Positions 57,061-64,000 of a stretch of 64,000 nucleotides of DNA are shown in pieces. A model generated the notes under the pieces. It was not told the DNA's origin. It did no database searches and saw only the letters and a list, made by a program, of their open reading frames with translations. Position 1 is the stretch's first letter; every line of letters starts with the position of its first letter. Both the position numbers and the translations under genes were made by a program. The DNA lies in contig NZ_NBWU01000001.1 of NCBI RefSeq assembly GCF_002514735.1, positions 1,240,001-1,304,000 of the forward strand, in the 5' to 3' direction. Source of the DNA: Sediminicola luteus (GTDB taxonomy: Bacteria; Bacteroidota; Bacteroidia; Flavobacteriales; Flavobacteriaceae).

Positions 57061-59331
57061 TTAGGGTTCCCAATAGATTTTTCGGGTGGCCCATAGGGGA
57101 GTGCCGTTTGCTGAAATACCCTGAACATTGATTAAATAATATCCGGCAGAAAGGCTGCTGGGCATGGCTATGGTATGTTTGCCTTTGCTATTCATTTTGA
57201 AATCGGGATCCCAGTAGATCAAATCGCCTTTTCTTTTAGTAAGCTTGAGCTTATCCGTATCGGCCAAACCGGGTATGGGTACAATAACCTGACCCGATCT
57301 ATCTGGGGGCAAGGTGTCGTGTTTCTCACCTCTTTTGGTATAAATGGCGATAACACCCCCCACGCCCCGTCGTCCGAAAAGGGCGGTCCTTCCTTCTCGT
57401 ATTACATCAACATAGTCTACAGAGATTATGGGAATGGGGTTAAGATCGGCCGAATCTATAAAAAAACCATCCAACATTATCGAGGCTGGGGTTAGGTTAC
57501 CCGCGGTTACCGAATACCTTAGGTAATAGGCGCCTTCAATTACCCGTAGACCGGGTATTTTTCGTTGTAATAATTCTTCGATGGAATTAGTTGCACTTAG
57601 TATTTGATCCGTAACCTCTACGGTTTCGGAAGGGGTAATGTATAGGGATCGTTGCCTCCTTCTTTGGGCTTGTTTTTTGGTTTCTACTTCGGTCTCCAAA
57701 GTGACTTCATCGAGTTGGGTAATACCGTCGCCAGAAAATCCTTCAACTTCTTGAGTTTGGGTTTCCCTTGGGTCAAAATCGTATTCCGGTACGGCAAAAT
57801 CAGTGGGTAAAAGGGAATCGATTATGATTTGATACGAATCCGAAAATTTTACCTTATCCTTTTTACGTCGTTTGGCCACCCCAACTTTTACATTCGCTTC
57901 TGCCCCAGAGGGGAAATATAGGTTTTGGAAAGAAAATTCCCCTGTGGTCGAAATCGGACTTTCCTCAAAACCGAGACCTGCACTTGAACGGGTAACCATA
58001 AAGGCCTGAATGCCTTCAAAATCAGGGTTCTTTCTTCGAGAAACAACCTTGCCTTTTAATTCCAATCCGGTTTCTGGCACATACAAAATGGTGCTGTCTT
58101 TTGAAATGGGTTTAAATGAGGCCAATAATTCGGCATCCAATGCCGATTTATCCAATAATCCGTTTTTGTCGATCACTTGGGCAAAGGTTTCGTCCAGGGT
58201 AAATTCCGTGGCCAATTGTAAATGGGTGCCGATATTGGAATAGGGTTGCCGGGCCCCGGCTAATTTGTGGACCGATACGGACATGTCGGCTAGTTTAAAG
58301 GAATCTTTTACCGCTAGCTGAATCCCCTTTTCGGCAACATCGATTGTAATGGCCGACTGGGTTAGGGTTCCGGTTTGGTGAAATAGGGTTTTTTCATAGG
58401 GAGTTTGGCCAGCATCGTCCTGAAGGCTAATATGCACCAGCCCTGGTCTTAAACGTGCTTTGGGCAGGGGAAGTACTATGGTGGGGCTCGTTGACCGTAA
58501 AGGAAGAACAAAGTCGGGCAGGCCTTTTTGCGCTACTTTAAGCTGGCAACCCGCATAACCCCCACCGTTATTGGTTTGTATGTATAGTTTATAACTTTCC
58601 GGATTTTCGATAATGCGCATGGTAAATCCCTGGGCTTCCAATTCGGGCAAGGGATATGACCATGTCCGTTGTTGACTGACCAACCGTAGGGTATAACCCC
58701 CTTCTTTTGGTGTAAAGGGAATGGCTTTGGCCAAGCCAAAGGGAAAGGGAATGCTTTCTAGAATATCGCCTTTTGAATTTACGAGCTCTAACATGGCATC
58801 AACATCTACACTATACGGATACAAGGCCTTAACCCCGATGCGGTTGGGCAAGTTGGCCACAAGGGTTCCGCCTTCCGGGTGTATTCGAAGTGCCGGTTTT
58901 TGGGTAGGGGTTTGCGGTGTGCCGCCATGGTCCGTAAGTACCAAGGGGATGCTGTTTTGATGGGAGCCCGAAGACCCTTCCATAAATTTGGTATAGGCCC
59001 GCAGGTGGTAAGTACCCGGATCCAAGGGTTCAGGAAAACTCAGGATCCCAGAGGCACTGGTCCCTTGAACGAGCAACTTTTTTTTGAGTACCGATTGTTT
59101 ATCCAAAGTCAAAACCTCTATATAAACCACCTTGCTTATGGGGGACATTCCGGTATCGCCATCTACTATATACACTTTAAACGGAATTTTTTCCTTGGTA
59201 TCGAATTTATCCTTGGGAAGATGGATAAAGGTTTTTTCGGTAGGTAGTTCTTGGCCAAAAAGGGGAGTATTAAAAACACCTAAGGCGCAGAGGAAAAGTA
59301 TAAAAGGTAGGTTCTGAAATGTGCGGGGCAT
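57061..59331 (-). CDS. Exported MG2/TonB-plug-like protein, copy A
   Basis: A 756-residue protein with a signal peptide (LPFILFLCALGVFNTPLFGQ). Residues 27-120 look like an alpha-2-macroglobulin MG2 domain (IHLPKDKFDTKEKIPFKVYIVDGD, PGTYHLRAYTKFM). A long beta-rich middle follows, with a carboxypeptidase-regulatory-like unit (LELKGKVVSRRKNP, GEFSFQNLYFP). TQLDEVTLE near residue 538 and a plug-like region (SIEELLQRKIPGLRVI to GRRGVGGVIAIYTKRG, near 585-664) resemble the plug of SusC/TonB receptors. No beta-barrel follows; a 90-residue beta tail ends the protein. Function is unknown. It is the last of three tandem paralogues. Confidence 0.8.
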   Translation of the reverse strand: MPRTFQNLPFILFLCALGVFNTPLFGQELPTEKTFIHLPKDKFDTKEKIPFKVYIVDGDTGMSPISKVVYIEVLTLDKQSVLKKKLLVQGTSASGILSFPEPLDPGTYHLRAYTKFMEGSSGSHQNSIPLVLTDHGGTPQTPTQKPALRIHPEGGTLVANLPNRIGVKALYPYSVDVDAMLELVNSKGDILESIPFPFGLAKAIPFTPKEGGYTLRLVSQQRTWSYPLPELEAQGFTMRIIENPESYKLYIQTNNGGGYAGCQLKVAQKGLPDFVLPLRSTSPTIVLPLPKARLRPGLVHISLQDDAGQTPYEKTLFHQTGTLTQSAITIDVAEKGIQLAVKDSFKLADMSVSVHKLAGARQPYSNIGTHLQLATEFTLDETFAQVIDKNGLLDKSALDAELLASFKPISKDSTILYVPETGLELKGKVVSRRKNPDFEGIQAFMVTRSSAGLGFEESPISTTGEFSFQNLYFPSGAEANVKVGVAKRRKKDKVKFSDSYQIIIDSLLPTDFAVPEYDFDPRETQTQEVEGFSGDGITQLDEVTLETEVETKKQAQRRRQRSLYITPSETVEVTDQILSATNSIEELLQRKIPGLRVIEGAYYLRYSVTAGNLTPASIMLDGFFIDSADLNPIPIISVDYVDVIREGRTALFGRRGVGGVIAIYTKRGEKHDTLPPDRSGQVIVPIPGLADTDKLKLTKRKGDLIYWDPDFKMNSKGKHTIAMPSSLSAGYYLINVQGISANGTPLWATRKIYWEP

Positions 59332-59451
59332 GATGTAAGATTACATTTTGCTTAAAATTAGAGTATTACCTATTGGTATTTAAAAATGTTCAACGGAATA
59401 CAAAATTTTGACCTTATTTGTGTAATTCGTAAAAACGGGTTTTATTATTGA

Positions 59452-61740
59452 CTAGTTAAATGCTACATTTTTTAGATACACCCATTGTACAAATTGAACG
59501 GTAGCTCCATCTTCAGTTACCCCTCTGATATCTACACGGTAGTAAGGAAGGTCTGGAGAGTAGGGTAATTCTAGGGCTATAGTCCCTTGGCTACCGGTGT
59601 TTACCTTGGGATCCCAGTATACAAGACCTTCTTGATTTCGATTATCACGAAGCTTGTATAATTTAGGGTTTGGTAAGCCCGGCAGGGTAATTTTATATCC
59701 GGGATCAGGTGTTACGGTTTGTTGGTTTAGATTATAATCTCCTTTTTTTGTATAAATAGCTATTACCCCTCCGGCCGCTCGGCTACCATAAATGGCTGCT
59801 TTGGAACCTTTTAAGATGTCTATGTAATCAATTTCATTTGTAAACATTCTTTCAAAATTATCTTTATAAGGTATTCCATTAAGGAGGACCAAAGCAGGAA
59901 CGGGGCCATAGATAGTAGCTGTATTTCGTAAATAAAATACATTATTGATAATTGTAAGACCGGGAACCCGGCTTTGAAGAAGTTCAGGCAAGGTTAAGGC
60001 GTTGTTTCCTATTTGATTACCAACCTCTATAGTTTGATTCGGGTTTTTATATAAAGTTCGACGCTTGTTTCGGGTAGATTTTATAATATCTATGGCATGG
60101 TCTTCCACGACAACCTCGTCCAAACGGTTTACCCCTTCGGGTATAACTAAAGCTTCGACCATTTTTGGGTTAGGGATCTCTTGTGTAATGTTCCTGTTTT
60201 CCAAAAAAGCAAAGTCCTTGGGCGATATAGTCTCTAGATCAATGCTATAACCGTTAAGTGAACTAATCTTATGTTTTCCCTTTGCGAATGGTTTTCCCAC
60301 CTTTAAACTCAATTTGGTAGAATTGGTAAAATATAGGTTGTGAAAGGCGAAACGGCCTTGGTCATTTACTATAGTATGGTCAAAACCGACCTCGTTTCCA
60401 TTTTTGTATATTAGGTTAACCTGAAGGTCACGTTGCTTTTTATTCTTGGATGTTACCCTACCCGATAAAGTGATTCCGGTTTCGAATTCGGGTGTTGTAG
60501 ACGCCTTTATGTTACTATTATTCTGAGGTAGGCTTAAAAGAAGTACTTCTCGATTTGCTTTATCCGCCAGATGGATTTTGGTGAGGAAATCGCCAAAAAA
60601 CTGAGGGTTTTTAATCCCCCTGGAAATAGGAGGTAAGGTATCTTTGAAACGATGTATCGCAACCGATAAATCAGGGTTCCGGCCCCAAGTTTGGTGTCTA
60701 TCTACTTTTAAAGTTATTGCGCTTTTCTCAGGGGTTACACCTTCTATGGAAAGCTTCGTCTCGTTGTTCTTTTTAAAAATGTTCCGTTTCAATACGCTTG
60801 TTCCTTTTGCGTTCCATAGTTCTATCTCGGCCAGCCCGGGAGCAAGTAGCTTTTTGGCTATGGGTATGATTAAGGTTTCCTTGGTTTCATGAATGGGTAG
60901 CTCCAAAATGCGATTCCCGTTTTGTTTTAAGCTTAAGACCAAACCCTCCAAGGTATCGGGCAAGGTCGATTTTAAAAAGACCCTATACTCAGTTCCGTAA
61001 TCAAGTACACGAACACCTATTCCAGTGGCCTGTACTTTGGGAAGGGGATATGACCAGTTTCCCTCTAAATTATCTAGGGTCAACGTATAGGTTTCGTTGT
61101 GTTTCGGTGTAAAACGAAACAAGACTGGCATAAGGGAAGTGAGCTGAAGGGAGCCTATTTGATTGTCAGAACCATCGATTATTTTGGCATTACTCGGGCT
61201 ACCGGGGGCTAGGTCTTCTAAGTACACGGCGAGTTGTGACGGAAGCCCGGCAACAAGTTGGCCGCCTTCCGCGTAAAACTGAATGTTTGGCTTTTGGGTA
61301 AGGTTCCCTTTTTGCGATTGGGATATGTTGCCCACAAAAACCGTGCTTATGGCTAGGGCCGAACCCGAAGCTTGCGAATAACGGGTATAGGCCTTTAGGG
61401 TGTAGGGCCCTTGTGCAAGATCGGAAGGTAACCAAAGGGCACCGAGCCCACTGGATCGATCCAAAAGCACCATTTTTTTGTAGGATAAGGAATCGGTGGG
61501 CGAACGCAGCTCTATATAAGCGACCTTACTCACTGGGAGAATAGGCCCATTGGAATCGAAGGCCTGTAGGTACACTTTGAAAAAGATGTTCTCTTCCTTA
61601 TCGAAATGGTTTTTGGAAAGATGAAGTTGAACATTTTCTTTATAATAGTCAACTGGTTGGCCTTTGGCAACATACCAACTACACCATACAAAAAGAAATG
61701 TATACCATTTATAAAGTATCTGACTGGATTTAAACTGCAT
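59452..61740 (-). CDS. Exported MG2/TonB-plug-like protein, copy B
   Basis: A 762-residue paralogue of copy A, closer to copy C. Signal peptide (WYTFLFVWCSWYVAKGQ), MG2-like domain (HLSKNHFDKEENIFFKVYLQAF, LAQGPYTLKAYTRYSQ), beta-rich middle with GITLSGRVTSKNKKQRDLQVNL, the linker VNRLDEVVVED near residue 538 and the plug-like segment (LTLPELLQSRVPGLTII to AAGGVIAIYTKKGDY). No barrel follows. The C-terminal beta domain contains KITLPGLPNPK and YYRVDIRGVTEDG. The gap before copy A is 120 bases and shows no exact TAnnTTTG. Surface display or envelope scaffolding is guesswork. Confidence 0.8.
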   Translation of the reverse strand: MQFKSSQILYKWYTFLFVWCSWYVAKGQPVDYYKENVQLHLSKNHFDKEENIFFKVYLQAFDSNGPILPVSKVAYIELRSPTDSLSYKKMVLLDRSSGLGALWLPSDLAQGPYTLKAYTRYSQASGSALAISTVFVGNISQSQKGNLTQKPNIQFYAEGGQLVAGLPSQLAVYLEDLAPGSPSNAKIIDGSDNQIGSLQLTSLMPVLFRFTPKHNETYTLTLDNLEGNWSYPLPKVQATGIGVRVLDYGTEYRVFLKSTLPDTLEGLVLSLKQNGNRILELPIHETKETLIIPIAKKLLAPGLAEIELWNAKGTSVLKRNIFKKNNETKLSIEGVTPEKSAITLKVDRHQTWGRNPDLSVAIHRFKDTLPPISRGIKNPQFFGDFLTKIHLADKANREVLLLSLPQNNSNIKASTTPEFETGITLSGRVTSKNKKQRDLQVNLIYKNGNEVGFDHTIVNDQGRFAFHNLYFTNSTKLSLKVGKPFAKGKHKISSLNGYSIDLETISPKDFAFLENRNITQEIPNPKMVEALVIPEGVNRLDEVVVEDHAIDIIKSTRNKRRTLYKNPNQTIEVGNQIGNNALTLPELLQSRVPGLTIINNVFYLRNTATIYGPVPALVLLNGIPYKDNFERMFTNEIDYIDILKGSKAAIYGSRAAGGVIAIYTKKGDYNLNQQTVTPDPGYKITLPGLPNPKLYKLRDNRNQEGLVYWDPKVNTGSQGTIALELPYSPDLPYYRVDIRGVTEDGATVQFVQWVYLKNVAFN
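61381..61610 (-). repeat. Near-identical segment shared with copy C (partner 63693-63922)
   Basis: Counting by eye, 61381-61610 and 63693-63922 differ at about 13 of 230 positions with no gaps at an offset of 2312. Identity falls sharply on both sides. The segment encodes the MG2-like strands around VYLQAFDSNGP to LKAYTR. Confidence 0.75.
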
Positions 61741-61787
61741 GCTGCTTGCTTGTGGTTATGAAATAAAGATAAGTTTTAGTTGATGAT

Positions 61788-64000
61788 TTATTTAGTGTAG
61801 GAAATCCGTTCTACAAAATGCAGTACGCTACCATCGGGTTTTATTCCGCGTATATCGACCAAATAATAAGGTAGATCATCATTAAAAGGAAGTGCTATGC
61901 TTATTTTTCCTTGGACGTCGGTGGTTAAGTTGGGATTCCAATAGACCAGCCCCTCCTTCACACCTTGTTCGGTTATGGTATAGTCTTTGGCAGAGGGTAA
62001 GCCGGGAAGGGTGATTTTAAAACCGGGATCAGGCATAGCCTTTTGTTCGTTGACATCGTAGTTTCCCCTTTTGGTATAAATGGCAACGATGCCTCCAGCG
62101 GCCCTGCTACCATATATTGCGGCTTTGGGCCCAGTAAGTATATCGACATAATCAATATCGAAAACACTGCTGGGGTTCGAGCTTATTGGTGTTCCGTTCC
62201 ACAGTATTAAAGCGGCAACCCCTGAGTTTCTCAAATAAAACTTACCGTTTCCACCACTTATATTGGGAACATACATGCGTAAAATATCACCAAGACTAAA
62301 GGCATGCATCCCTTTTAAATTGGCTATTTCTACGGTGTATGTTGGGTCGTTGTACATAATGCGTTGTTTGTCGCGTTCTTTAGCCTTTCTATCAATGGCC
62401 TCATCTTCCAAAACCACCTCATCCAATCGGTTTACCCCTTCGGGGATCACCATTTCGGCTACTGGATTTTTGGTTGGCACGGAGGCAATGGAAGAATTCT
62501 TTTGCTCCAAAAAGGCAAAGTCCTTGGGCGATACCGAATCCATGACAATGGTATGGCCATAAAGCGATTTTATCTTATGCTTGCCATGGGAGGTAGATCG
62601 GCTGACTTTTAAGGTGAGTTCTGTAGAATCGGTAAAGAAGAGATCGCTAAAGGTAAATCGGCCATCGTTATCCACGGCCGAATGGTCGAAACCGACCTCG
62701 TCTTTGGTCTTGTACAACAGATTTACCTGCAGATCGCGTTTCTTCTTGCTCTTGGAAACCACTTGACCACTAACGGTAAGACCCTTTTCGATATTGGCAA
62801 GGTCCGCGGTTGAGTAGGTTGGAGGGTAGATTGGATCGGTCAACAGGACTATTTCCCGTTCTTGACCATCGGCAAGTAACAGTTGGGCAAATTTGTCGGT
62901 CAAGGGCTTCAGGTTTTGTTGGCTATCCTTGGGTAATAGTGTCCGTGCCGAATTGGGAAAACGGTGAATGGAAACCGACAAATCGGTTTTTTGATCCCAG
63001 TCGCCATTAGCTTCCAATCTGAGCTGTACTTCGTTTTTATCGGTATTTGTGTAGGGGGACAAAGAAAGGGCTAACCTATCCGGATCGATAAACACCTTAC
63101 GTACGAGTACGGTTTCCCCTAGGTCATTGATTAGTTCAAGTGTAGCCAGTCCGGGGGCGAGGTGTTTTTTGGCAACTGGAACGATTAGGGTTTGCTTGCC
63201 TTGATCTATGGGTAGATTGAGGATCTTAACATGGTTTTGCCACAGAATTAGCACCATGTTTTCCAGTTTTAAAGGTAGGGTCGATTTTAGGAAGACCCTA
63301 AATTCGTTTTCGTTTTCGAGTACTCGGATACCGACACCCTGGGCCTGCGCCCGGGGTAAGGGATAACGCCAATCGCCATGAGGTCCTTTGATGATCAGGG
63401 TATGCTCTTCTGTAGATTGGGGCGTAAAAAGGAACAGATTGGTTCGGTCTGGCATTAGTTTTAGGCCACCAATATTGTTTCTGGAGCCATCGACTACTTT
63501 TGCTTCGATTGAATCGGTCATGGACCCACGCATCTGTACCCCTAGTTGCGAGGGTATGCCCACCACCAAACGACCGCCTTCAGGGTAAAAGGTTATACTT
63601 GGTTTTTCAGTGGCATTCGACCCTATTTCGCTGGGTTGCTTACCCACGAATATCTTACTTTCGGTTTTGGTTATGCCTGAATGTTCCATAAAACGGGTAT
63701 AGGCCTTAAGGGTGTAGGGCCCTTGTGCAAGATCGGTTGGTAACCAAAGGGCACCGAACCCACTGAATCGATCCAAAAGCACCATCTTTTTATAGTATAA
63801 GGAATCGGAGGGCGAACGCAGCTCTATATAAGCGACCTTACTCACTGGGGGAATAGGCCCATTGGAATCGAAGGCCTGTAGGTACACCTTGAAAAAGATG
63901 TTCTCCTCCCTATCGAAATGGTGTTTGGATAGGTGTAGGTATAGTTGCTCTTGTACTGTATCGCTATACTGGGCAAACGAAAACAGTGAGATGGAGATTA
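61788..64000 (-). CDS. Exported MG2/TonB-plug-like protein, copy C (N-terminus cut by window edge)
   Basis: At least 737 residues are visible. The frame runs to the window edge, where ISISLFSFAQ is the end of a signal peptide, so the few first residues are missing. A downstream GTG is not the start. Domain order is as in copies A and B: HLSKHHFDREENIFFKVYLQAF, LAQGPYTLKAYTRFME, GLTVSGQVVSKSKKKRDLQVNL, VNRLDEVVLED, FSLGDILRMYVPNISGG and AAGGIVAIYTKRGNY. It is 47 bases upstream of copy B, so the two are probably co-transcribed. A 230-bp patch of the MG2 region is about 94% identical to copy B. Confidence 0.8.
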   Translation of the reverse strand, partial: ISISLFSFAQYSDTVQEQLYLHLSKHHFDREENIFFKVYLQAFDSNGPIPPVSKVAYIELRSPSDSLYYKKMVLLDRFSGFGALWLPTDLAQGPYTLKAYTRFMEHSGITKTESKIFVGKQPSEIGSNATEKPSITFYPEGGRLVVGIPSQLGVQMRGSMTDSIEAKVVDGSRNNIGGLKLMPDRTNLFLFTPQSTEEHTLIIKGPHGDWRYPLPRAQAQGVGIRVLENENEFRVFLKSTLPLKLENMVLILWQNHVKILNLPIDQGKQTLIVPVAKKHLAPGLATLELINDLGETVLVRKVFIDPDRLALSLSPYTNTDKNEVQLRLEANGDWDQKTDLSVSIHRFPNSARTLLPKDSQQNLKPLTDKFAQLLLADGQEREIVLLTDPIYPPTYSTADLANIEKGLTVSGQVVSKSKKKRDLQVNLLYKTKDEVGFDHSAVDNDGRFTFSDLFFTDSTELTLKVSRSTSHGKHKIKSLYGHTIVMDSVSPKDFAFLEQKNSSIASVPTKNPVAEMVIPEGVNRLDEVVLEDEAIDRKAKERDKQRIMYNDPTYTVEIANLKGMHAFSLGDILRMYVPNISGGNGKFYLRNSGVAALILWNGTPISSNPSSVFDIDYVDILTGPKAAIYGSRAAGGIVAIYTKRGNYDVNEQKAMPDPGFKITLPGLPSAKDYTITEQGVKEGLVYWNPNLTTDVQGKISIALPFNDDLPYYLVDIRGIKPDGSVLHFVERISYTK

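Follow-up and report, generated by a model that had tools for sequence, protein, structure and literature searches.

Barrel-less plug proteins with a putative TonB box on truncated alpha-2-macroglobulins, in a tandem array of Sediminicola luteus

The described systems closest to the locus analysed here are of several kinds. One is represented by the bacterial alpha-2-macroglobulins E. coli YfhM (ECAM), which is periplasmic, and Salmonella SaA2M. The thioester motif of alpha-2-macroglobulins is CxEQ (PMC4498604). Another is the SusC/RagA group of transporters (TIGR04056; BT1763); in BT1763 the TonB box reads VDEVVV and is required for growth on levan (PMC7782687). A third is a laboratory construct, the artificially split FpvAI, in which plug and barrel on separate polypeptides can work together: the soluble FpvAI plug restores function to the plugless FpvAI barrel in trans (PMC10994204). 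Finally, pairs of a TonB receptor and a DUF4249 protein are known from the operon BT2172-BT2173 (PMC11003636). How far the TonB plug exits the barrel during transport is a long-standing question.

The window, the whole stretch of 64,000 nucleotides of Sediminicola luteus DNA that was analysed, contains at positions 57061-64000 an array of three adjacent minus-strand genes, P1, P2 and P3, each encoding an exported-looking product of about 760 residues (Table 1). The P3 start codon lies 55 nt past the end of the window. By eye, each N terminus has a hydrophobic, signal-peptide-like stretch and no obvious lipobox; among NCBIfam matches at E<=1, there is no type IX sorting model or C-terminal sorting domain. 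The array is flanked by lepA upstream of P3 on the same strand and, on the other side, by a Na/H antiporter gene on the opposite strand. A lone family member at L079:8645-11089 is flanked by dusB-like and lepA genes, which are also found near the window array and suggest that the two sites are orthologous.

Table 1. Features of the P1-P3 array (window coordinates)
Feature	Coordinates	Strand	Basis
P1: exported, truncated macroglobulin (756 aa) carrying plug and putative TonB box	57061..59331	-	ORF; Plug E 1.5e-7; tree
P2: P1-like architecture, 762 aa	59452..61740	-	ORF; Plug E 4.5e-10; SusC plug part E 9.7e-17
P3: P1-like architecture, 755 aa in full	61788..64000 (L001:11788-14055)	-	ORF; Plug E 4.1e-8
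P2 MG2-like domain, ~residues 35-124	61369..61638	-	family level: PF01835 in relatives, C4/C3/A2M alignment; P2 alone without match
P2 carboxypeptidase-regulatory-like (SusC NTE-like) unit, ~residues 421-505	60226..60480	-	position by alignment; Pfam match only in relatives
P2 TonB-box-like motif LDEVVV, residues 540-545	60106..60123	-	L in 41/41 and 66/69 relatives; positional match to SusC TonB box VDEVVV
P1 TonB-box-like motif LDEVTL	57697..57714	-	sequence position
P3 TonB-box-like motif LDEVVL	62409..62426	-	sequence position
P2 plug domain, residues 580-659	59764..60003	-	Pfam; predicted fold
P1 plug domain	57352..57612	-	profile match on genome
P3 plug domain	62088..62336	-	profile match on genome
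P2 C-terminal cap (YWDP...), first part of A2M domain PF00207 of long forms	59455..59625	-	family-profile alignment to long forms
P1 C-terminal cap (YWDP...)	57064..57222	-	alignment to long forms
P3 C-terminal cap (YWNP...)	61791..61949	-	alignment to long forms

The sequence-only reading had described three adjacent exported plug proteins with no room for a barrel, and this description holds. The Plug family PF07715 exceeds the Pfam cut-off in each of the three proteins, and no other Pfam family does. The SusC model TIGR04056 covers the plug part only, at positions ~70-207 in P2, 105-210 in P1 and 152-207 in P3. Because fewer than 95 residues (about 90) follow the plug, a 22-strand barrel in the same chain is excluded. 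The expectation that the plug-like region folds as a plug is supported by an AlphaFold model of the P2 plug, predicted with no sequences other than P1-P3 (mean pLDDT 67; ~61-84 in core blocks). TonB-receptor plugs lead its Foldseek matches (best E 1.2e-4), and the best VIA-align match is BT1763 SusC residues 96-206 (Z 8.0, 3.1 A over 100 residues). Likewise, the plug part of the family profile aligns to SusC structures (E 4.8e-18). A full-length P2 fold made with the three paralogues had a mean pLDDT of 41 and was discarded as uninformative.

The macroglobulin part is visible at the level of the family. An MG2 domain had been proposed for all three proteins; PF01835 matches 38 of 41 relatives (Plug, 29 of 41), whereas P1, P2 or P3 alone has no Pfam match to MG2 at E<=1. 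The N-terminal part of the family profile aligns weakly to MG2-type regions of complement C4/C3 and alpha-2-macroglobulin (E 0.004-0.05). The proposed carboxypeptidase-regulatory-like unit fared similarly: Pfam sees it only in relatives (4/41, and long forms). Both domains are assigned to P1-P3 through these relatives, and in P1-P3 themselves appear too diverged to score. At the other end, the family profile aligns the C-terminal cap to residues ~840-892 of long macroglobulins, in which PF00207 spans 842-931. Since P1-P3 align with the first ~890 residues of these proteins and end inside PF00207, they are truncated macroglobulins that have kept the transporter half.

Between the regulatory unit and the plug, in the place of the SusC TonB box, lies the LDEV motif. 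The earlier comparison of this linker with the start of SusC plugs stands, the motif being conserved as described in relatives. Across 75 relatives, the LxEV columns have entropies of 0.31 (L), 1.37 (E) and 0.97 (V) bits, as compared to 3.0-3.3 in the flanking linker. Among the 69 members of about 800 residues, the fourth position is V or I in 65, the leucine is kept almost throughout (Table 1), and the linker is otherwise variable. By its position, the motif is a putative TonB box.

With SusC/RagA, P1-P3 share the order of regulatory unit, TonB box and plug, the plug sequence match and the predicted plug fold; in contrast to SusC/RagA they have no barrel, macroglobulin domains precede the plug, and a short macroglobulin-like cap follows it instead of 22 strands. 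With ECAM and SaA2M, the family shares MG2 in relatives and, in its long branch, a bait-region-like match, PF00207, a CxEQ thioester domain and a receptor-binding-like domain. Unlike the bacterial alpha-2-macroglobulins, the family has a plug and TonB box inserted before PF00207, and P1-P3 stop inside PF00207, have no thioester domain by Pfam and have no visible lipoprotein anchor. The statement that no characterised system has this form agrees with the literature search, which covered few subscription journals and returned no description of a plug-macroglobulin or barrel-less array system.

A narrow profile matches 46 of 149 genomes of the same bacterial family, and a broad one matches at least 54 of 296 genomes across Bacteroidota (E<=1e-30), the second count being a minimum, as no more than three candidates were scored in each genome. 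When a single protein served as the query, only ordinary SusC proteins came back. In a quick tree, with long branches for some rows, P1-P3 form a clade with support 100, in which P2 and P3 are sisters. The monophyly of the trio indicates growth of the array in place, and the array is probably a local expansion of a Bacteroidota-wide family of exported, shortened alpha-2-macroglobulins. In the survey of copy number and neighbours suggested by the sequence-only reading, tandem arrays recur (G059, G076, G077, G223, G235); among 106 neighbours no gene recurs next to members of the orphan branch, the branch of about 800 residues that includes P1-P3 and keeps the TonB box. One SusC near an orphan member (L130) is complete, with its own plug.

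The long branch appears to explain the origin of the family as full thioester macroglobulins with a plug. It comprises 18 proteins of ~1500-1550 residues, with TonB box and plug just before PF00207 and a PxGCFEQ thioester motif in all 18. The three long forms scanned with Pfam (L111, L112, L114) contain MG2, plug, PF00207 and a thioester domain and, in part, regulatory-unit, bait-region and receptor-binding-like matches; a direct match to alpha-2-macroglobulins of known structure comes from the thioester half (E 3e-39). In 18/18 loci, the gene immediately upstream, on the same strand, encodes a SusC-like barrel, and the two genes are 3-5 nt apart or overlap. No plug match is seen in any of the 18 barrels, and their first 230 residues contain nothing like a TonB box. 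Barrel and macroglobulin complement each other on the SusC model: in L111, positions 592-981 in the barrel gene and 75-214 in the macroglobulin; in L114, the barrel gene covers 208-981. The pair therefore looks like a natural split TonB-dependent transporter, which differs from split FpvAI in being natural and in having its plug on a macroglobulin. At least five genera show the pairing, but most of the 18 loci come from one genus and they are not 18 independent cases. A single long relative without a plug match (L113) has no barrel neighbour among the genes listed, which fits the pairing rule.

The gene arrangement thus supports the assignment of the long-branch plug to a separate barrel, and the rescue of the plugless FpvAI barrel by a soluble plug (PMC10994204) speaks for docking in trans. 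The sequence-only reading had raised such pairing for P1-P3; support for it extends to these relatives and does not reach the window array. No barrel adjoins P1-P3, and searches of the window genome with PF00593, TIGR04056 and a split-barrel profile yielded no TonB-type barrel that lacks a plug. There, 35 of 38 PF00593 ORFs also match PF07715. As plug-less barrels, the candidates at C1:819k and C4:524k were rejected because a plug is present by eye, and C2:841k because it reads by eye as something other than a TonB receptor.

Taken together, the best explanation, with a probability of roughly 0.5, is that P1-P3 are exported, shortened alpha-2-macroglobulins with the N-terminal half of a SusC, acting as periplasmic, TonB-addressable plug proteins that dock with a barrel from another gene. 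The mechanism would involve: residence of P1-P3 in the periplasm; binding of TonB to their TonB box; and docking of the plug, a unit for TonB to pull, on or inside a barrel in the outer membrane that a different gene encodes. For the long branch, the plug-less SusC next door would be this barrel. For P1-P3, the partner might be a complete receptor rather than an empty barrel.

The main alternative is that the plug is kept solely for structure or protein binding within a macroglobulin-like scaffold, entering no barrel and leaving TonB uninvolved. This is a serious but still doubtful possibility. It would account for the lack of a plug-less barrel in the window genome and for the orphan gene context. 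Also consistent with it are the plug-like segments found in an anti-sigma/VWA-like protein and in a tiny double-plug protein, and the existence of a branch of about 600 residues that has a degenerate plug region and has lost the TonB box. All six members of this branch share an operon with a complete TonB receptor and lipoproteins of DUF4249 type, as judged with Pfam runs on two of the six; one is in the window genome. These operons resemble BT2172-BT2173 (PMC11003636), whose receptors have their own plug, and differ from the window array, which has no such neighbours. As a plug-like region is kept there without a TonB box, the module can evidently be kept for other reasons. A purely structural role, however, does not predict a TonB-box motif conserved within a variable linker in 66 of 69 orphan members. 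TonB coupling is preferred mainly because the orphans retain the box and the branch with a complete receptor nearby has lost it.

In the operon of the window genome (L063:6602-14994, contig C1), the genes alongside the 597-aa member without a TonB box encode a complete TonB receptor and three lipoproteins of DUF4249 type, of which Pfam identified one.

A bolder form of the TonB-coupled reading would have natural split TonB-dependent transporters in Bacteroidota, whose barrel is separate from a macroglobulin that holds plug and TonB box, and P1-P3 as free-standing plug cartridges moved by TonB into and out of barrels from other loci. This combined proposal is tentative, and its truth doubtful. 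If one protein naturally carries the plug and TonB box and a second one the pore, exit of the plug, its exchange and pulling by TonB would all become open to direct test. A gate on a thioester macroglobulin, the chassis of a protease trap, would link envelope defence with the uptake of nutrients or the import of proteins, a coupling not found described. Because amplified orphan forms are common in Bacteroidota, a function for the short forms would re-annotate many proteins now named for their plug only.

It is unlikely that P1-P3 serve as interchangeable plugs, taking the place of the one that a complete TonB receptor or SusC barrel already has and so tuning the gate for each pore. The retained TonB box and SusC-like plug, the tandem amplification and the activity of soluble plugs in trans in the laboratory (PMC10994204) are compatible with such exchange, but no natural plug replacement was seen, and all SusC/TonB barrels found in the window genome come with a covalent plug of their own.

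A role for P1-P3 as adhesins or protease traps, whether on the cell surface or secreted, is very improbable. The proposed connection of MG2 to protease-trapping macroglobulins is sound at the family level, and this kinship is what speaks for a trap; the thioester domain is nevertheless absent from P1-P3, which excludes a classical covalent trap. Export to the surface is further disfavoured by the unmatched type IX sorting model, the absence by eye of a lipobox, and a relative with an STN domain that points to the periplasm. The suggestion of exchangeable adhesins found nothing in its support and was dropped.

Slightest of all is the chance that P1-P3 are functionless, degenerate leftovers of a split or complete SusC system: the thioester half has been lost relative to the long forms and the plugs score below those of split pairs, but the reading frames are intact in all three copies, and both the phylum-wide retention and the conserved motifs argue against decay. 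The plug scores against SusC are 0-71 bits in orphan members and 87-169 bits in split-pair members, so the orphan plugs have drifted further from SusC, a point that also weighs against docking of P1-P3 with a separate barrel.

A few members of the orphan branch have N-terminal additions. In the family members at L067:9590-13210, L070:6734-14597, L115 and L116, a regulatory unit and ~300 residues without assignment precede the macroglobulin part. At L077:3055-13971, an ECF sigma gene is divergent from a FecR gene, followed by a 1340-aa family member bearing STN and by two more members. The position of the STN-bearing protein beside FecR and ECF sigma genes fits a periplasmic N terminus, and the locus is possibly a signalling version of the family.

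Upstream of the split barrels, two other kinds of protein were observed. One, of 770-890 aa (L111:891-3206; also L141-L152), is encoded beside an ECF sigma gene and has a plug but no barrel. Except for the plug match, its features were read by eye: it resembles an anti-sigma factor that spans the membrane once, and it has a segment with TonB box and plug, a region of von Willebrand type and a tail similar to those of type IX cargo. The other, at L112:2623-3093 just upstream of the split barrel, is an exported protein of 156 aa with two mini-plug-like repeats.
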